The notes under the pieces were generated by a model that saw nothing but the letters and a program-made list of their open reading frames with translations, ran no database searches and was not told the DNA's origin. Positions 33,262 through 51,569 of a DNA stretch of 64,000 bases are shown one piece after another. Source of the stretch: Planctomycetota bacterium. Its GTDB lineage: Bacteria > Planctomycetota > Phycisphaerae > UBA1845 > UTPLA1. Made by a program: the position numbers and the translations under genes. Location: assembly GCA_003576905.1 (NCBI GenBank), contig QEVG01000028.1, positions 1-64,000 on the forward strand, read 5' to 3'. How positions within the stretch are numbered: position 1 is the stretch's first letter; each line of letters begins with the position of its first letter.

Positions 33262-36200
33262 TCACGGCGCAGAGATCAGGTTGAGCTCCATGACGACCGG
33301 CAGGTGGTCCGACGATGAATGCAGCGCGTCGGCGATGAACAGGCCCTGCGGAATCGTCGGCGGATCGTTTATGTCCGCGTTGAAGTGGTTCCCGTCGTTG
33401 CCAAACGCCCGGTAGGAGTTTGTCACGTACGTCAGTCCCACGTTGTCGCGCAGCGTGTCGGAGATCAGGATGAAGTCGAACCGGTCATCCAGTCCTCCGT
33501 TTGAACCGCCCGCCGGCGACCCGGCGTTGTCCTGATGCGGCGACTGGGTGTGAATGCCCGCGAATGCCGAGCTCTCGCTCCAATTGCCGGCCGCATTGAT
33601 GGGGTCAAACGCCTGGCCATCGTTGTCACCGGTCGAACCCGTCAGCTGGGTCCAGGCGCCCTCGCTGCTCGTATAGAGATTAAGGTCGCCCGCGTAGATG
33701 AGCTGACTGCCGGTAGTCAGGGCGTTGGCATCCGCGCGAATCACGGCCGCCGCCGCGGCGCGGTCGATCGGATTCTGCGGGTCCTCCATGGCCGAACCGG
33801 CCTTCAGGTGCATGGCGTACACGTAGAACTGTCCGCCGGCCGGGCTCCCGACGTGATCAAGCAGCCAGCGGTCCGTCCAGCGCGGCGTCGTCGACAACGT
33901 CACGTGATTGCCGTTGGTGTACACAATCTTGTCGGTGCGATAGTAAAGGGCGTTGTCGCTGTCCGGGCCGTTTGTGAACTCGGCCAGGGCATATCCGCCC
34001 GGTCCATCCGCCGCGTTCAGGATTGACGTCAGGAAATCGTTGGCGCCGGTCGTACCCTCGACCTCCTGAGCGATGATGATGTCGGCGTTCAGGTAGTTGA
34101 CGATCCGTTTGTAGGCGTCCTTCCGCGTGCTGGATGCGCCGCCGTTGTAGGCCAGCAGGTTCCAGGTCACGATTCGGGTGCCGAACGCCCGTGCGAGTCC
34201 GCACGACGGCGCAGCCAGTATGCGATCGACAAACGGAAGGATGTCATCCGTATCGACGACCGCATCCTGATTGATGTCGGCGCAGCCGTTGCCGGCCATT
34301 GACATGAGAACGTCGACAAAGCCCTGAATGTCGAGAGCATTCAGGAAGCCGTTTTCGTCCATATCTCCCAGGCAGCCCGCACAGCCGCAGGTGGCCGGGT
34401 TTGCCTCACCGGCGGTGTCATCGCCAAACGATGGATCGAACGCCTCGATGCGCCATTCCGGAGGCATCGAGGGGCACAGTGCAATATGACCCGGGCTGCT
34501 GCCCGCGACGGGACCGACCACCGGAGGCCCGTAATGCCATTCGGTGTTGATCGGCGGGTTCTGCTCGCTGATGAGCGCCACCCGGTCCAGCTCCAGCGCC
34601 CACGGCGTCGTATCGAAGACGCCGTCGTCGTTGGTGTCGAGGTCATTCGCAAGAGCTCCGGTGAAACCCTTGACGAGCATGTGCGTCACGTTGTCGTCGT
34701 TCTCGAAATTGAGCGTCGTTACAAGATCGATTGACGCACCCAGCGCATTGGTTTCCTCTGCCGCAAGGAAGTACCCGTCGGCGGGGATCTTCTGGCCGGT
34801 GAGCGGAATGACGGCCTCGATGATGCCGCTGTTGAGGTCCGGACCGTCGCCGATGACGAGGTAGGTGAGATCGCCGATCGGAACATTGGGCGTACCCTTG
34901 AGCTCGAAATACTCATCGGTGTCGTCGCCCGGCTGGTCGATCCGGATTTCATTGAGCCGCGTGTCAAGGTTGTCCGGGCAAGGCGGCGTCGGAGGACACG
35001 TCAACTGGCCGGGGTGGAAGATTCCGCCCAGACCGTTGCACAGGTTCTCCGGCAGATCGGCGCGGCAACTCGGGCCGGGCAGACAGCACGCCGCCGGATC
35101 GCCGCAGAACGGAGTCGTATCGATATCCGCTATCGTGCGGAGTTGCAGCTGATAGCCGCTGTCCCGCGGATCGGTCGAATCGAACTGGCTGTGAATGCCA
35201 GTCAGCGTCACCGGTCCTGTCGGAATCGGCTGGCCGATGATGTCCGTCTGGAAAAGCGTCGAAACGCGAACGGTCACGGTGTACGTGCCGTCCGAGACGG
35301 TGTAGTTCGTCGCCCCGGCAAACGTTCCCGCCTGCTGGAACACGACACACGGAAGGCGAACGATCTCGCTCTCGTAGTTTTCCGCGGTCGGGCTGCCCGG
35401 CGCAAACTCGGCGCCCGTGACAACGACGGGAGCCGGAACGCCCGAGGGACCGTCATCTCGCGAAAGTCCGAGAGCCTTGGGCGCGCCGTTCTGAAGTTGG
35501 ATCAGGCCGTTGAAGACGCCGGTCGTGCCCTGGATGTCGATCTGATTGCCCTCGGCTACGCTGCCGAATTCACCATTGATGATCGCCGTCGCGCTGAAGA
35601 CGGTCAGGGCGGACTGGCCGTCCATGCCGCTCGAATCCTGAATCTGAAGCGACGCGGACGAAGCAGAGTTGATCAGGTTCGTCTTCGAACTGAGGATTAC
35701 GTTGCAGATGCGGACCGGCGTTCCCGGAGGAAGCGCTCGCGCCTCGGCAATCGTCTTGCATTCGGCACAGGCGCCGGCGGCCGGCGGGTCGACGCACGTC
35801 GTCAACGCGCCCTGATAGACACCGCCCATGCCGTCGCAGGTTACCGAATCCGTGACGGAACACGTGAAGGTGGTGCAGTCCGGGGCGTTCGTGCACACGC
35901 AGCACGCGCCCTGACACTGGGCTCCGTTGACCGCGCACGTAGTGGCCCGTCCCAGCCAGAGGCTCGCCAGCGCCTCGACGCACTCCTGACGCTCGATGTC
36001 GTCTAGACATCCGCCCGCACCGGCGCAGCACGCCCCGGTTGACAATGCATTCGCGCCGCCCGGTGTGTCATCCCCCCGTGTGACGTCGAATGGCCCGACG
36101 CGCCAATCCTCGAATCCGGTGTTGGATCCGTCGGGCAGCCGGAACACATGGCCGGGATTGAAAGCGCCGTCCGTGAACGTATCCACGAACGGGTCGCCGG

Positions 36201-37821
36201 ATGCATAGTGACACTCCGTACTGGCCGGCGGCTGATTGATGCCGTTGTCGTCTTCAATCAGGGCGACCACGTCGAGCACATCAATCCACAGCGGATTGTC
36301 GATCAAACAGTTGTCGTCGGTGTCGATGTCGTCGGCGACCTGCCCGCGGAAGCCGGAAACCAGCATATGCGTGGTGTTGTCGCTGAAGCAGTGGAACATT
36401 TCTCCGGGACCTTCCTGCACAGTTCCCGTAACGATCAGGTCGGGCGTAGCCGGGAAGCCGGGGATCGCAAGTGTCGCACGGCCTGCAAGAAAGTGTTCGC
36501 CGGGACCGAGCACAAAGCCGTCGAGATCGACGACCAGCTGAACAAGGCCCGAGTTGGTCCGTGCGGGGTTGTTGGTGAACGTCCCCTCGTCGCCGATCAC
36601 AATATACGAAAGGCCGCTCAGGCTTCGCGTCTGGTTACTCGTGTTGATAATCTCGAAGTACTCGTGCAGATCGGAGCCGGCCATCTCCTGGCGGATTTCG
36701 TTAATCAGCAGACCTTCGTAACTGGGCGGGCAGCCGCCGGCGCACGAGCTGGCGTCGCCAAGATAGATGCCCATCGTGTTGAGTTCGCAGTCGGCCTCGG
36801 TGCGGATCGAACAGGTGGCCCCGCCGCCTTCGCAGCACGCGCCGACGCAGGGGTTGTTGACGCAGTCCGTTCCGTCGCCCTTGTAGATCCCGTTCGCGGC
36901 AAGGCAGTCCGCCTCGGTGAGAAGCGTGCAGACTCCGTTCTGGTCGCAGCACGCGCCCTTGCACGGGTTCGGTGAGCAGGTGGTGTTGTCGCCTCGATAG
37001 GTGCCCATGACCACGTTCAGGCAGTCGGCCTCCGTGGCGATGGTGCAGTCGCCGACCGAGTCGCAGCATGCGCCCGTTGGCTGAGGACAGGGATTCGGCT
37101 CGCATACGGTGCCATTCCCCTGAAACACTCCGCCGGCAGTGTCGCAGTCCACCTCGGAAACAAGCGTGCAGTCGCCGCTTGCGAAACAGCAGGCGCCGGC
37201 GTCCGAACCCACGGCGGCGATCACCACGTCATCCACCCGGTTGGTTCCGGCTGATGCCGTCGTCGCCTGGGAAACAAGTCGGAAATAGACAACCGGCTGG
37301 TTGTTCAGTGCGGGAGGAGCAAGGATCGGGCCGAAACACGTCGTTGGGTCCGGAGTCGTGCTGCTCCAGTTTACCTGCAGGACCGTGTAGTCGTTTACGA
37401 GAGTAGTGAAGTTGGTTCCGTCGGTGCTCCATTCGAGATCAAACGTCGATGGTCCGGTACTGCTACGAGTCTGGCACCAACTGATCGTGATCGCGGACTG
37501 GCCCGTCGTGCTGGTGGCAAACTGGTAATAGTCACCCGTTGACCAGTTGTTTGAGCTGAACGATTCCGTCGAGCCGTTACCCGTGGGATTACTGTAGGCT
37601 GTGGCGCCGACCACATGAAATCCGGTCGCCGGCGACCCTGCCCCGGCATTCAGACCGCCTTCGGCGGCATGCGGTCCGGCCGTGGTTGGGACGCTGACTT
37701 GAAACGTCCATCGCGCGAGTTCCGTCGTACCGGCATGGACGGGGGCCGTCGCCAAACCGAGCAGCACGGCAAGGCTGCAACAGAACACCAGGGCCGTCCG
37801 AATTCCCACTCTCGTAAACAT
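33262..37821 (-). CDS. Large extracellular nuclease: Cys-rich repeats, two lamin-tail domains, OB-fold, dockerin, EEP nuclease
   Basis: This 1519-residue exported protein is related to the ExeM/NucH extracellular DNases. In order: signal peptide (to about 31), a beta-sandwich region, four Cys-rich repeats (about 209-365), lamin-tail domain 1 (from about 369, LLINEIRQ), further Cys-rich repeats, an OB-fold of YhcR type (from about 685), another Cys-rich repeat, lamin-tail domain 2 (from about 955, RLNEIRIDQ), a dockerin-like EF-hand pair (about 1145-1200), and an endonuclease/exonuclease/phosphatase domain (1214-1519). The last has catalytic motifs TWNLLAYN, IAQEVEG, YAMHLKAG, AGDLNLY, DDRFDFIL and SSDHLPV. 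ATG 37821 has AGGAGA upstream. It likely digests DNA outside the cell for phosphate or nutrients, which is inference. Confidence 0.9.
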   Translation of the reverse strand: MFTRVGIRTALVFCCSLAVLLGLATAPVHAGTTELARWTFQVSVPTTAGPHAAEGGLNAGAGSPATGFHVVGATAYSNPTGNGSTESFSSNNWSTGDYYQFATSTTGQSAITISWCQTRSSTGPSTFDLEWSTDGTNFTTLVNDYTVLQVNWSSTTPDPTTCFGPILAPPALNNQPVVYFRLVSQATTASAGTNRVDDVVIAAVGSDAGACCFASGDCTLVSEVDCDTAGGVFQGNGTVCEPNPCPQPTGACCDSVGDCTIATEADCLNVVMGTYRGDNTTCSPNPCKGACCDQNGVCTLLTEADCLAANGIYKGDGTDCVNNPCVGACCEGGGATCSIRTEADCELNTMGIYLGDASSCAGGCPPSYEGLLINEIRQEMAGSDLHEYFEIINTSNQTRSLSGLSYIVIGDEGTFTNNPARTNSGLVQLVVDLDGFVLGPGEHFLAGRATLAIPGFPATPDLIVTGTVQEGPGEMFHCFSDNTTHMLVSGFRGQVADDIDTDDNCLIDNPLWIDVLDVVALIEDDNGINQPPASTECHYASGDPFVDTFTDGAFNPGHVFRLPDGSNTGFEDWRVGPFDVTRGDDTPGGANALSTGACCAGAGGCLDDIERQECVEALASLWLGRATTCAVNGAQCQGACCVCTNAPDCTTFTCSVTDSVTCDGMGGVYQGALTTCVDPPAAGACAECKTIAEARALPPGTPVRICNVILSSKTNLINSASSASLQIQDSSGMDGQSALTVFSATAIINGEFGSVAEGNQIDIQGTTGVFNGLIQLQNGAPKALGLSRDDGPSGVPAPVVVTGAEFAPGSPTAENYESEIVRLPCVVFQQAGTFAGATNYTVSDGTYTVTVRVSTLFQTDIIGQPIPTGPVTLTGIHSQFDSTDPRDSGYQLQLRTIADIDTTPFCGDPAACCLPGPSCRADLPENLCNGLGGIFHPGQLTCPPTPPCPDNLDTRLNEIRIDQPGDDTDEYFELKGTPNVPIGDLTYLVIGDGPDLNSGIIEAVIPLTGQKIPADGYFLAAEETNALGASIDLVTTLNFENDDNVTHMLVKGFTGALANDLDTNDDGVFDTTPWALELDRVALISEQNPPINTEWHYGPPVVGPVAGSSPGHIALCPSMPPEWRIEAFDPSFGDDTAGEANPATCGCAGCLGDMDENGFLNALDIQGFVDVLMSMAGNGCADINQDAVVDTDDILPFVDRILAAPSCGLARAFGTRIVTWNLLAYNGGASSTRKDAYKRIVNYLNADIIIAQEVEGTTGANDFLTSILNAADGPGGYALAEFTNGPDSDNALYYRTDKIVYTNGNHVTLSTTPRWTDRWLLDHVGSPAGGQFYVYAMHLKAGSAMEDPQNPIDRAAAAAVIRADANALTTGSQLIYAGDLNLYTSSEGAWTQLTGSTGDNDGQAFDPINAAGNWSESSAFAGIHTQSPHQDNAGSPAGGSNGGLDDRFDFILISDTLRDNVGLTYVTNSYRAFGNDGNHFNADINDPPTIPQGLFIADALHSSSDHLPVVMELNLISAP
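36735..37203 (-). repeat. Four tandem Cys-rich repeats inside the nuclease gene
   Basis: Units of about 38-41 codons share GACC...G.C...TEADC...G.Y.GD.T.C..NPC. Three more diverged copies occur in the same protein near residues 600-680 and 930. The fixed Cys spacing suggests disulfide-bonded extracellular modules. Confidence 0.8.
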
Positions 37822-38380
37822 AACGTCGTTTCTCCTGTCTCTTGCTGCGCTCCGAGGTACTTCGCTCATGTTCGATTAACGGATCTTCAAGGGGCGCATA
37901 ATCGCGCCCGCCTTTGGTCTTGACATCGGGGGGAAGAGGTTCGCGAAATTCCACCCTCTCGGCTCGCGAAATTATTCGTGCACGTTTAAGGACGACGCAG
38001 TTCGTCATCCGCTGGGGTTTGCGACAAGGGGCGGTTGTCGTTACCTGCAATTTCGGAAGCGAGTTGGGGATCCCTCCAGAAGCATTCCTCATCCAGTGAT
38101 GAAACACACTCTCGACTCTGACATTCTATCAGTATCCCGTCACAAAATGAAGCGTTTCCCGTCATCTTTTCGGACGATGGGCTGGCGATTGGCCGCGGAA
38201 TCGTCCGGCCGCTAAACCGGGCTTGCGCGTAAGCTTGCACGCCGATAAGAACAGTCCCGCCGTTAACCCGGTTTGTGAATATTGTGCGAAGGCGGTGTCG
38301 GCGTCCGTGCAGCCGATATTACTGCCGCGCCCGCATTGAAACCCGCGCGGCGCGGCATCACAATGCCCGGCAGCACGTGA
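37822..38380. other. Intergenic region between nuclease gene and tRNA-Leu
   Basis: No coding frame with support is seen. It contains the upstream regions of the nuclease gene (minus) and of tRNA-Leu (plus); neither promoter could be fixed with confidence. Confidence 0.5.
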
Positions 38381-38497: not shown

Positions 38498-39904
38498 TCA
38501 GGGTGCCAGCAGCAGTCCCACCAAATCCTCGAGGTCCGTCAGGTCGACGTCCCCGTCGCCGTCCAGGTCGCAGCGGCAGGACGCCTCGCCGGCCGGGCCG
38601 GGCATAAGCGTCGCGTCGATGCACCCCTGCAGATCCAATCCGTCAAGCAGAGTGTCGGCATTCGAGTCTCCGCCGCCACTCGTAAAGACCTCGACAAGGA
38701 CAGGGTCGGTCGCTTCGGAACCACAGCTGTTTGAAACGACGCAAGTGTACATGCCGGTGTCGGTTGCCGCCGAGGGACCGATGACGAGCGTATCCGATTG
38801 TGAGCCGCTTACCGCGCCGCCATCGACCAGCGGCGCGTCGTCCTTCCGCCACTCATAGCTCAGATTCGAACCGGTCGCCGACACCGATAGGACGATCGAC
38901 ACGCCGGCACACTGGGCCAGTCCGCCCGGCGAATTTTCGATGACCGGACCCCCCGGCGTGTCGCAGGAGTCCCCGATTCCGTCACTGTCGCAATCCTCCT
39001 GCCCCGCATTCGGTTCTGACGGGCAATTATCGACGCAGTCGAGGACGCCGTCCGAATCGGTGTCAGGTCCGGCTGCAAGCACCTCAATAAGCTGTTCGCA
39101 GTCAGCCGCGTTTCCGCAGGCGTCCACCGCGTTCCAGAAGCGATGAATCGTATAGAGCGGGGATCCCGCGCCGGGCTCGACCACATCGTGAAACGTCAAT
39201 ATCGCGCTGCTGCAATTGTCCTCCGCAAGTGCGGTCCCCGTCGCATTCGGATCACTCGGCTGATCGCAATCGATCACCAGGTCGTCCGGGCAGGTCACCA
39301 CGGGCGGAACTGCGTCGAATATAAACGGCCCCGTCCCGACGAGGTTTGTTTCGATGGGAAACCCCTGGAAGCTCAATTCCGAAGTAAGCGTTCCAAACAT
39401 CCGGAAATCGACCGAGGAAGTTCCGCAATCAAGACCGGAGCTTACCTGAAACACGAGTATCGCCACCAGGCCGTCCGCTTGGGTCGGCGCTGCGCATGGC
39501 CCGGTGAACGCCGTGATGCCCGAGAAGTTCAACTCGCCCGGCATCGCGCCGGGGAAGTTGTCTGCATTGTCAATGTTTGCGGGGATAAAGGTCTGGAATG
39601 GCCCGCTGCCGCACGGAGGCTCAAGTGCGCCGGTGCATTTGGCATAACAGCTTTCAGCGCCGAGAAAGGTCAGCGCGGCGGGGTCGAACTGCACGAAGGC
39701 CTGAAAGCCGGTGACCGGCTCCTGCAAGTTGCGCACCCAAACTTCAACATGAAACGTGTTGTCCACGCATGCGGTCGTTTCGAGAACCATCGCGTTGGGC
39801 GGAGTTCCCCTGGGCGACGCACCGGAAGCCGAGGCCGCGGCAAAGGCCAGCCATGCGATGGAGAGTGGGAGACAACAAGGCCGACTCGACGTGCAGAAGT
39901 TCAT
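38498..39904 (-). CDS. Secreted cohesin-like, TSP3, Ig-like and dockerin protein
   Basis: This is a 468-residue exported modular protein. A signal peptide (1-29) is followed by a cohesin-like beta domain (about 40-205; FHVEVWVRNLQEPVTGFQAF, QFDPAALTFLGAE). A HYR-type segment (VTCPDDLVIDC) and a thrombospondin type 3 Ca-binding repeat (DTDSDGVLDCVDNCP) come next. An Ig-like domain (about 335-420, YEWRKDDAPLVDGG, MYTCVVSN) and a terminal dockerin-like repeat (RCDLDGDGDVDLTDLEDLV) close the protein. Having a cohesin-like and a dockerin-like module in one protein is notable. It ends 33 bases after tRNA-Leu on the opposite strand. Confidence 0.85.
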   Translation of the reverse strand: MNFCTSSRPCCLPLSIAWLAFAAASASGASPRGTPPNAMVLETTACVDNTFHVEVWVRNLQEPVTGFQAFVQFDPAALTFLGAESCYAKCTGALEPPCGSGPFQTFIPANIDNADNFPGAMPGELNFSGITAFTGPCAAPTQADGLVAILVFQVSSGLDCGTSSVDFRMFGTLTSELSFQGFPIETNLVGTGPFIFDAVPPVVTCPDDLVIDCDQPSDPNATGTALAEDNCSSAILTFHDVVEPGAGSPLYTIHRFWNAVDACGNAADCEQLIEVLAAGPDTDSDGVLDCVDNCPSEPNAGQEDCDSDGIGDSCDTPGGPVIENSPGGLAQCAGVSIVLSVSATGSNLSYEWRKDDAPLVDGGAVSGSQSDTLVIGPSAATDTGMYTCVVSNSCGSEATDPVLVEVFTSGGGDSNADTLLDGLDLQGCIDATLMPGPAGEASCRCDLDGDGDVDLTDLEDLVGLLLAP

Positions 39905-49775: not shown

Positions 49776-51569
49776 ATGGCTTGTCGCGGTGCCATCGCCA
49801 TTTGTGCCGTTGTTGCGATGCTGCATTCGTGCCCCCGTGTTCAGGCATTCGAGCCTGGTCCCCTGATTCTGCATGTCGATCCCGACTCGCCCGCGCCTCT
49901 CAATGGACAAACCTGGGATACAGCCTATCACCGGCTGGAGGACGCGATCTTCGCCGCGCCGGCGGGTGTCGAGATCCGCGTCGCCGAGGGGGTCTACAGG
50001 CCCGACGGCGGCACCAATGACCGCGCGGCCTCGTTCCAGCTGAAATCGAATCTGTCGATCTACGGCGGGTACGCGGGTTTTGGAGCTGGCAATCCCGACG
50101 CCCGTGACCCGGACAACTACGAATGCATCCTGAGCGGCGACATCGGGCTGGCCAACGACAACACCGACAATTCCTTTCACGTCGTGACCACCGTGAGCGG
50201 GGTCAGCAATTCGATCCTGAACGGGTTCACCATCACCTTCGGGCATGCCGACGGCCCGGGGACCTTTGATCGCGGCGGGGGGCTTTACGTCGCGAGCGGA
50301 ACGCCCACAATCGAGAGTTGCGTGTTCAACTTCAACTTCGCCGGGCAGGGGGGCGCGCTGGATGTAGGCGCTTCGGCGGCGCCGGTGTTTCTGCAATGCG
50401 TGTTCGCGGACAACGCATCGAGCGGAAACGGTGGGGCGGTCAGCACGTTTTTTGCGAATCCCAGCTTCGTGGCCTGTTCGTTTGCGGGAAACAACGCCGA
50501 AGTGTCGGGCGGAGCTGCCAGTTTTTTTGGCGGCTCCCCGATCGTGGCGGCCTGTCAGTTCGTGGACAACGCGAGCCTGATTTTCGGCGGCGCTGTTTAT
50601 GAGTCATTCGGCCAGCTTTCGCTCGGCGATTGCCTCTTTGATGGAAATTTCGTGGTCAACAGCCTGGCCGTGTCGTCCGACGGCGGGGCGGCGTTCCACA
50701 ACGACTCCGGGGACGTGCTCTTCTACGCGTGCAATTTTACGGACAACCTGACCAGCGACGACGGCGGGGCGATTTTTCAGCGCGACGGGTCGATGCAGCT
50801 CGAGCGGTGCGTGATGCGCAACAACTTCGCCGGTGAGCGCGGCGGCGCGATCTACAGCACCAACTCATCCATCGAGATTCGAACGTGCAGCATCCTCGGC
50901 AATTCCGCCACACAGAACGGCGGAGCGCTGTGCAACGTGAACGGTCCGGTGACAATGCTCCGGTCCACGATCGTAAACAACCGCGCCACCCTCCTGGGAG
51001 GCGGCATTCACTCAACCGGGGTAACGGTCTCGCTCAACAGCAACATCTTCTGGGGAAACCTCGACGCGATGGGAACAAATGAGAACTCGCAACTCCGCCT
51101 TGCAAGCGGGTCCGCGGTGTTCGATTTCTGCTGCGTCATGGGCTGGACCGGCGCACATCCCGGCGGGGGGAATATCGCCGGGCCGCCCATGATGGTGGAC
51201 GCGGACGGCCCCGATAACATCGCCGGCACCGCCGATGACAACGTTCGGCTCAAGCCCACCTCCCTCTGTATCAACGGGGGCGATCCGTCGAACGCACCGC
51301 CGCCGTCCGAGCCGGCCGATCTGGACGGACTGCCGCGGATCATGGGATGCGTCGTCGACATCGGGGCTTATGAGTTTTACACGGGCATCGCCCATTCGGG
51401 CGATCTCGATGGCAACGGTGCCGTCAACGGGCTCGACGCCTCGCTCTTTACCAATGCGATGCTCGGGATAGGCCCTCCGGCCTTTTTCTGCGTCGCCGAT
51501 ATCAATGCCGACAGCAGCGTCGACTTTCTCGACCTGGACCTTTTTCTGGGGCTCGCCCTCGCCCCATAG
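49776..51569 (+). CDS. Secreted right-handed beta-helix protein with dockerin end
   Basis: This 597-residue exported protein has a signal peptide (about 1-24) and many short repeats of the type GGAV...F..CSF.GN.A..GGA, as in Pmp-like/choice-of-anchor Q right-handed beta-helices. The beta-helix ends near residue 520 with DIGAYEFYTG. A complete dockerin-like pair follows: SGDLDGNGAVNGLDASLF and ADINADSSVDFLDLDLF. Such folds often bind or cut polysaccharide, but no catalytic residues can be assigned. The ATG has AGGAAGAG upstream. Confidence 0.87.
   Translation: MACRGAIAICAVVAMLHSCPRVQAFEPGPLILHVDPDSPAPLNGQTWDTAYHRLEDAIFAAPAGVEIRVAEGVYRPDGGTNDRAASFQLKSNLSIYGGYAGFGAGNPDARDPDNYECILSGDIGLANDNTDNSFHVVTTVSGVSNSILNGFTITFGHADGPGTFDRGGGLYVASGTPTIESCVFNFNFAGQGGALDVGASAAPVFLQCVFADNASSGNGGAVSTFFANPSFVACSFAGNNAEVSGGAASFFGGSPIVAACQFVDNASLIFGGAVYESFGQLSLGDCLFDGNFVVNSLAVSSDGGAAFHNDSGDVLFYACNFTDNLTSDDGGAIFQRDGSMQLERCVMRNNFAGERGGAIYSTNSSIEIRTCSILGNSATQNGGALCNVNGPVTMLRSTIVNNRATLLGGGIHSTGVTVSLNSNIFWGNLDAMGTNENSQLRLASGSAVFDFCCVMGWTGAHPGGGNIAGPPMMVDADGPDNIAGTADDNVRLKPTSLCINGGDPSNAPPPSEPADLDGLPRIMGCVVDIGAYEFYTGIAHSGDLDGNGAVNGLDASLFTNAMLGIGPPAFFCVADINADSSVDFLDLDLFLGLALAP

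Follow-up and report, generated by a model that had tools for sequence, protein, structure and literature searches.

A predicted secreted nuclease of a planctomycete, apparently a gene fusion, carries six-cysteine repeats that resemble a module of iRhom proteins

The stretch of DNA analyzed here (the window; positions 1 to 64,000, that is 64,000 nucleotides, of contig QEVG01000028.1, assembly GCA_003576905.1, Planctomycetota bacterium) contains on its minus strand, at 33262-37821, an open reading frame (ORF) for a predicted secreted multidomain nuclease of 1519 amino acids (aa). Behind the signal-peptide-like start stands an unnamed domain, after which come four GACC repeats and a first lamin-tail-like (LTD-like) domain. 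Two GACC repeats separate this domain from an OB-like domain, and one GACC repeat separates the OB-like domain from another LTD-like domain; a dockerin-like pair then leads into the C-terminal EEP nuclease domain. We favor, with moderate confidence, an explanation in which the protein is a fused secreted nuclease, the GACC repeat is akin to a short six-cysteine module of the iRhom homology domain (IRHD) of iRhom proteins, and the repeats serve as rigid joints between the other domains.

The repeats number exactly seven, with six cysteines each: repeat 1 at 37084-37197 (starting at aa 209), repeat 2 at 36961-37074 (aa 250), repeat 3 at 36847-36957 (aa 289), repeat 4 at 36727-36843 (aa 327), repeat 5 at 35914-36036 (aa 596), repeat 6, which contains an insertion, at 35758-35910 (aa 638), and repeat 7 at 34975-35091 (aa 911). 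The protein contains a loose six-cysteine pattern 5 times, whereas 1000 shuffled versions of its sequence contain 0.005 on average and 1 at most. A preliminary description of this DNA had reported at least seven interspersed Cys-rich GACC repeats; with exactly seven found and a pattern count far above that of shuffles, this part of the description holds.

Profile searches of the PDB (177,635 distinct sequences) lead from the GACC repeat to iRhoms. With a profile of the seven window repeats, only four sequences matched at E<=1, all of them iRhom1 or iRhom2 (E 0.014-0.18); with a profile of 82 repeats, the same four sequences were the sole matches at E<0.01 (1.2e-4 to 4e-3), and only one more sequence, a defensin-like peptide at E 0.42, matched up to E 10. 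The matched iRhom module has all six cysteines, with a spacing of 0,6,7,13,4 versus 0,5,7,13,4 for the commonest form of GACC (108 of 250 near-complete matches, a count that includes copies from overlapping loci). For the second module of iRhom1 and of iRhom2, 0 of 2000 cysteine-preserving shuffles reached the real score with either of two profiles, the closest shuffle, of the iRhom1 module, coming within 0.2 bits of it with one profile; permutation of the non-cysteine columns of the repeat profile likewise gave 0 of 200 at the real score. Alignment of GACC with iRhom by hhalign gave a probability of 81.5% and P 1.2e-5. In the reciprocal direction, a GACC-enriched set of 3608 ORFs and their reversals was searched: the iRhom2 module returned 11 matches to GACC ORFs before the first other match, a reversed decoy, several of the 11 being one repeat from overlapping loci, and the iRhom1 module returned 3.

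Predicted structures point to the same module. The AlphaFold2 model of one GACC repeat, made from 14 rows (predicted local distance difference test score, pLDDT, 94.8; predicted TM-score, pTM, 0.65), consists of two strands and one helix, with an additional short bridge. Foldseek, run with this model against 350,542 PDB chains, returned three matches, with iRhom1 and iRhom2 first (root-mean-square deviation, rmsd, 1.0 over 26 columns, TMq 0.59; and 1.8 over 32 columns, TMq 0.67). Structure prediction of one repeat, a check that the preliminary description had proposed, thus yielded a high-scoring model for which iRhoms rank first. VIA placed 38 of 38 residues on residues 569-607 of iRhom2 (8snl_B; rmsd 1.9, Z 3.7), a segment that agrees with the 571-606 of the sequence search. 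For a model of four repeats (pLDDT 76.3), the four iRhom chains ranked 1-4 of 12 in Foldseek (E 0.44-2.2) and, of 19, were the only ones with Z>=2 (3.8-4.4), through the first repeat only. Taken singly, no structural score settles the matter; we find the resemblance persuasive because the comparisons by sequence, by cysteine pattern, by register, and by structure all lead to one short segment of iRhom. We conclude that GACC is probably a 38-residue domain with the fold of the iRhom module, and that the two probably have a common descent, as judged from sequence comparison and modeling.

Several results weigh against this conclusion. The best single profile stretch in an iRhom has an i-Evalue of 0.0085-0.032, the best E in the single-sequence reciprocal search was 0.029 in the GACC-enriched set, and the match is limited to a 38-residue module and not the whole IRHD. 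The first CC module was reached, depending on the profile, by 0 or 5 of 2000 shuffles for iRhom1 and by 80 or 146 of 2000 for iRhom2, and a second GACC copy in the IRHD is therefore only possible. The Foldseek E-values for the single repeat, 4.5 and 6.0, are not significant alone; the VIA alignment of the single repeat with iRhom1 is loose (range 500-593, Z 2.3); the full-length superposition of the four-repeat model is poor (15.5-17.8 angstrom); Z values of 3.7-4.4 are reachable by unrelated folds; and, since Foldseek also scores amino acids, the sequence and structure evidence are partly dependent.

According to the main rival of homology, the likeness is convergence, and GACC, still a spacer, is a bacterial six-Cys domain of separate origin: small disulfide-rich modules have few topologies, and cysteine spacing and a few turn residues would make the score. 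We regard this as somewhat doubtful, albeit an alternative to be taken seriously. It fits the small size of the module, the low structural scores, the weak fit of the first iRhom module, and the gap in distribution, iRhoms being described as conserved in metazoans (PMC6451368; this and the other papers cited here are represented by extracts of their text) with no intermediate lineage within the sequences searched. It is at odds with the large part of the score that non-cysteine positions carry, the real value being attained by 0 of 2000 shuffles and 0 of 200 permuted profiles, and with the absence up to E 10 of other disulfide-rich PDB proteins, save the one defensin-like peptide.

GACC and the IRHD (PDB 9xy4, 9q7y, 9o58, 8snl) have in common the six-cysteine module CC-x5/6-C-x7-C-x13-C-x4-C, shared non-Cys positions, and overlapping predicted and solved structure over 38 residues. 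They differ in that the IRHD is one domain of ~230 aa and 16 cysteines between transmembrane segments TM1 and TM2 of a rhomboid-like membrane protein, whereas GACC is a free-standing repeat of ~38 aa in secreted bacterial proteins and does not reproduce the whole 16-Cys IRHD. Published accounts describe the IRHD as unprecedented, nothing similar having turned up among PDB entries or AlphaFold models of the human proteome (PMC11248996), as a unique fold by Foldseek and Dali comparison with the PDB and the AlphaFold database (PMC10148629), and as unique among all known structural domains (PMC8233286). Whole-domain searches for relatives of the IRHD could have missed a match of 38 residues. The preliminary description had named a match of the repeats to a well-described domain with a different role as grounds against its interpretation; this applies in part, the repeats resembling a module of the IRHD, whose structure is solved but which is described as a domain without relatives. 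Within an open-licence library, we found no prior account in print of a GACC-iRhom link, co-mentions of iRhom and planctomycetes looking incidental by title and opening of the abstract, and, for cysteine-rich extracellular disulfide repeats of planctomycetes, only papers unrelated by title. Counting one clear GACC-type module in the IRHD and a second as possible, we tentatively suggest that GACC and the IRHD share ancestry, the IRHD having perhaps been built in animals from GACC-type modules, so that a bacterial repeat would have supplied the ADAM17-regulatory domain.

The GACC repeat occurs well beyond the window. On the 4.7-Mb genome, the seven-repeat profile gave 53 matches (E<=1) in 18 ORFs, the weakest ORF, on contig C32, at E 0.42. 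A scan of 15 of the 17 other GACC ORFs found as Pfam partners multicopper oxidase, dockerin, FG-GAP, RCC1, TSP3, PA14, P-domain, CHRD, and DUF11, with 4 of the 15 having no match at E<=1e-3. A profile search for the repeats across planctomycetes, also proposed in the preliminary description, found GACC in 97 of 298 genomes of the class (E<=1e-3) and in 13 of 294 genomes of a wider phylum sample (E<=1e-4); within the class, among the matches listed, it is present in 62 of 65 genomes of the same order and in 35 of 233 of the rest. When 64 of 269 distinct repeat rows, gapped at the six cysteine columns, were set aside, all six cysteines were retained in 201 of 205 repeats, the other 4 each lacking one cysteine; an attempt to derive disulfide pairing from co-lost cysteines was, with 201 of 205 keeping all six, not informative. 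Outside the cysteines and glycines the repeats are variable (mean column identity 34%). Searched against Pfam, the first window repeat matched no family and the 82 repeats matched six families, one member each, with a best E of 0.021; an NCBIfam scan of the whole protein returned ExeM_NucH only and nothing for the repeats. A regular-expression dockerin pattern, present in 34 of 94 GACC ORFs and within 80 aa of the end in 18, proved too crude and was not used. Two further ORFs are rich in GACC repeats: a 620-aa ORF of the same genome (L051, C25:72441-73904) that is almost all GACC repeats (12 matches) with a dockerin-like C-terminus, and, from a genome that belongs to a different family of the phylum, a 692-aa ORF (G301:C226:73711-75600) that has 15 GACC matches and is perhaps a transferred copy. 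Pfam lacks a family for the GACC repeat, and one would be worth creating.

Comparison with relatives indicates how the protein arose. Relatives of a query comprising the dockerin and nuclease parts (E<=1e-5) were found in 95 of 298 genomes of the class, a few matching weakly, and GACC repeats are absent from all 19 other annotated nuclease ORFs. A search for LTD/GACC partners covered 17 genomes of the family. In seven of them (that of the window, G124, G130, G059, G002, G038, and G200), the fused order GACC-LTD-GACC-OB-GACC-LTD-dockerin-nuclease is kept, with 4-7 repeats each. In six (G212, G052, G293, G298, G287, and G296), the two halves are separate ORFs on one strand: an LTD/GACC ORF comes first and the nuclease ORF directly after it, and their stop-to-stop spans either overlap or are separated by no more than about 320 bases. 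Among these six, the partner in G296 was recovered only with a refined profile and no OB part was found there, a contig end cuts the nuclease ORF in G212 and the LTD ORF in G287, and the partners in G052 and G293 have their domains in a different order. G160 and G208 have the nuclease, with no LTD/GACC neighbor within the fetched stretch; G136 has an LTD fragment and the nuclease on different contigs; and G299 (75% complete), a genome outside the dockerin-nuclease relative count, gave no match to the LTD part. A tree of 24 rows has a branch, with support 84/81 (81% of 200 bootstraps), that sets the fused sequences apart from all others. Misassembly as the source of the fused ORF is contradicted so far by the occurrence of fused ORFs in seven genomes. 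We conclude, on the evidence of these sequences, that the window protein is a fusion of an LTD-OB-LTD-dockerin gene with the EEP-nuclease gene that neighbors it in relatives. That two neighboring genes have become one protein is good evidence that their products work together.

The junction of the fusion is at the dockerin-like pair (34201-34389, aa 1145-1207), in which two Ca-binding motifs can be read by eye. The pair scores 12.3 bits against the dockerin family (PF00404), below the Pfam cut-off of 22.9 bits, and orthologs score 9.3, 14.8, and 22.7 bits; it shares 47% identity with a segment of the same genome (C62:130180-130374) that overlaps an above-cut-off dockerin (25.7 bits). The pair does stand just before the nuclease, as first described, but below the Pfam cut-off, and it stands there because two genes were joined at this point. 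The unfused partner in G212 ends with LTD-dockerin and about 120 residues, as does the fused protein up to the junction, and G002, G038, and G200 keep about 120 residues between dockerin and nuclease; this fits a former near-terminal dockerin. Other partners speak against such an origin. Of the six unfused partners, only that in G212 has a near-C-terminal dockerin after the last LTD; the dockerin is internal in G052, G293, and G296, is followed by two GACC repeats in G298, and was not found in the contig-cut LTD ORF of G287. A mid-protein dockerin therefore also occurs without fusion. In all five split-pair nuclease ORFs with intact ends there is a second dockerin match at the C-terminus; the fused chains end with the nuclease.

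The nuclease identity given in the preliminary description is borne out as far as sequence can bear it out: the Pfam cut-off is passed, the motifs look intact, and the catalytic positions are conserved. The EEP domain (33283-34182) matches Exo_endo_phos (PF03372) over aa 1218-1466 with 26.5 bits versus a Pfam gathering cut-off of 24.5. The motifs TWNLL (1219), QEV (1252), MHLK (1337), GDLN (1378), DDRFDF (1445), and SDH (1504), which correspond to the EEP catalytic motifs (N, E, H, D-x-N, D-H), are all present, and among 20 aligned sequences including that of the window, E1253, H1338, D1379, N1381, and H1506 are invariant and D1505 is nearly so. A single-sequence PDB search with the domain found nothing up to E 0.01; with a 20-row profile, the nearest solved sequence was nocturnin (6mal; E 1.1e-6). 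The window nuclease thus has motif residues and fold family in common with the EEP superfamily, and its likeness to nocturnin is partial, covering only profile positions 1-180 of 296.

The overall layout recalls ExeM/NucH. Shewanella ExeM consists of signal peptide, LTD, OB-like region, and EEP domain, and its OB-like region is crucial for activity (PMC6085458). The window protein has a signal-peptide-like start, LTD-like and OB-like parts, and a C-terminal EEP nuclease in the same order, although its LTD and DUF5689 matches are below the Pfam cut-offs and its OB match is weak; it differs in having two LTD-like domains, seven GACC repeats, a dockerin-like pair before the nuclease, and an origin by fusion. 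Membership in the family proper (NF033681) was rejected, the whole protein scoring 23.1 bits and the nuclease domain 25 bits against a curated cut-off of 300. Of the earlier label "ExeM/NucH-like nuclease", the secreted LTD/OB/nuclease layout with GACC in between is retained, and assignment to NCBIfam ExeM_NucH is not.

The other parts are as follows. Full-length orthologs occur at locus L031, whose best segment is 54% identical, and in G124. Translation from the ATG at 37821 gives 1519 aa, and from an alternative in-frame ATG at 37869 would give 1535 aa. A predicted signal peptide (MFTRVG...APVHA, aa 1-30, 37732-37821) was judged by eye from the sequence. The place of the N-terminal domain (aa 31-207, 37201-37731) is taken by an LTD in four orthologs (G124, G059, G002, and G038) and by another, unnamed domain in the window protein, G130, and G200; because this domain differs among orthologs, the N-terminus was swapped. 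LTD-like domain 1 (36046-36726) scores 18.3 bits versus a Pfam LTD cut-off of 34.3, and L031 at the same place scores 26.6 bits, also below; LTD-like domain 2 (34396-34968) is paralogous to it, matching LTD-like domain 1 at E 6e-25. The LTD cut-off is passed in L118 and L119, where the best stretch is an extra N-terminal LTD, and profiles made from the two LTD-like domains of the window protein match this accepted LTD (L118 33-154, E 6e-15; L119 35-133, E 1e-17). The OB-like domain (35110-35763) matches DUF5689 with 26.4 bits versus a cut-off of 28.6, which orthologs L031, L118, and L119 pass at 33.2-38.9 bits; the name OB comes from a below-cut-off match to PF01336 in L148 (16.3 bits) and from the likeness to ExeM. 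The whole protein has no match in 72,556 plasmid records.

Directly bearing on the dockerin-like pair is the question of a cohesin partner. The genome (97% complete) has no cohesin above the Pfam cut-off and four weak ones. Against these 0 above-cut-off cohesins stand 96 dockerin matches (E<=0.1) in the whole genome, and the dockerins of this lineage may therefore not serve cohesin docking. Elsewhere in the window, a plus-strand ORF at 49776-51566 combines Chlamydia-PMP-type repeats with an above-cut-off dockerin. The upstream neighbor of the nuclease gene (38498-39904, minus strand, 468 aa) has a weakly cohesin-like N-terminus (14.4 bits), a HYR-like part (14.5 bits), TSP3, Ig, and a C-terminal dockerin-like match (15.9 bits). 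It keeps its place in the three genus genomes examined, those of the window, G124 (L068:2-1417), and G130 (L031:4162-5262). Four more distant fused loci (L070, L118, L119, and L120), whose flanks may be too short, showed no such gene next to the nuclease. A profile of the N-terminus of the neighbor matched no PDB sequence up to E 1.

These observations bear on a proposal for planctomycetes of LTD-anchored complexes of cohesin, dockerin, and HYR parts, the 'planctosome' (PMC6461901). The likeness lies in LTD, dockerin, HYR, and cohesin-like parts within one lineage; the difference is that the enzyme here is a nuclease versus a peptidase there and that no cohesin here is above cut-off. By analogy, the neighbor is a possible adaptor candidate, resembling the adaptor of that proposal. 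The nuclease might then be a dockerin-borne subunit of a planctosome-like scaffold, docking on the cohesin-like N-terminus of the neighbor or on another scaffold. We consider this distinctly improbable: the weak cohesin, HYR-like, and dockerin matches of the neighbor, its kept place, and the planctosome proposal are in its favor, but the imbalance between dockerins and cohesins, the below-cut-off score of the pair itself, the lack of a PDB match for the N-terminal profile of the neighbor, and its absence from the more distant loci are against it. A cellulosome-type scaffold was rejected, there being no cohesin over the cut-off and no PDB match for the neighbor profile. The earlier suggestion of a DNase assembled on a scaffold thus loses its footing in a genome with no above-cut-off cohesin, and the weakly cohesin-like neighbor keeps the idea alive.

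In the role we propose, the protein would be exported from the cell, and its oxidized, disulfide-stapled GACC modules would be stiff joints spacing the LTD, OB, and catalytic parts outside the cell. The repeats bracket globular domains (GACCn-LTD-GACC-GACC-OB-GACC-LTD), and we therefore infer a role as protease-resistant rigid joints. By analogy with ExeM and the planctosome proposal (PMC6461901), the LTDs would attach to envelope or matrix; the OB-like domain may bind DNA, the nuclease would degrade environmental DNA for phosphorus and nitrogen, and the dockerin-like pair could have a scaffold role via the upstream neighbor. It tells against this proposal that the joint or spacer role, the DNA substrate, and the envelope anchoring are drawn from position and from likeness to ExeM. 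The repeats might alternatively be binding modules, for a sugar, the matrix, or a partner protein, that tether many secreted proteins to a common target. Binding would suit the variety of GACC partners (multicopper oxidase, FG-GAP, RCC1, PA14, P-domain, CHRD, DUF11), the C25 protein made of nearly nothing else but a dockerin-like end, and the related IRHD, which is a protein-binding surface for ADAM17 (PMC11248996). We nevertheless think it unlikely, since, apart from their cysteines and glycines, the repeats vary, no conserved motif on their surface having been noticed, and those of the window protein are placed between domains, singly, paired, or four in a row.

Judging from the fused and unfused pairs, the nuclease probably cooperates with the LTD/OB/GACC protein in extracellular use of nucleic acid in a little-studied lineage. 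The IRHD controls the ADAM17 sheddase, which releases TNF and EGF-receptor ligands. If the relationship proposed here is true, a free-standing bacterial relative would offer a testable answer to the question of the origin of the IRHD and a minimal model of its module.

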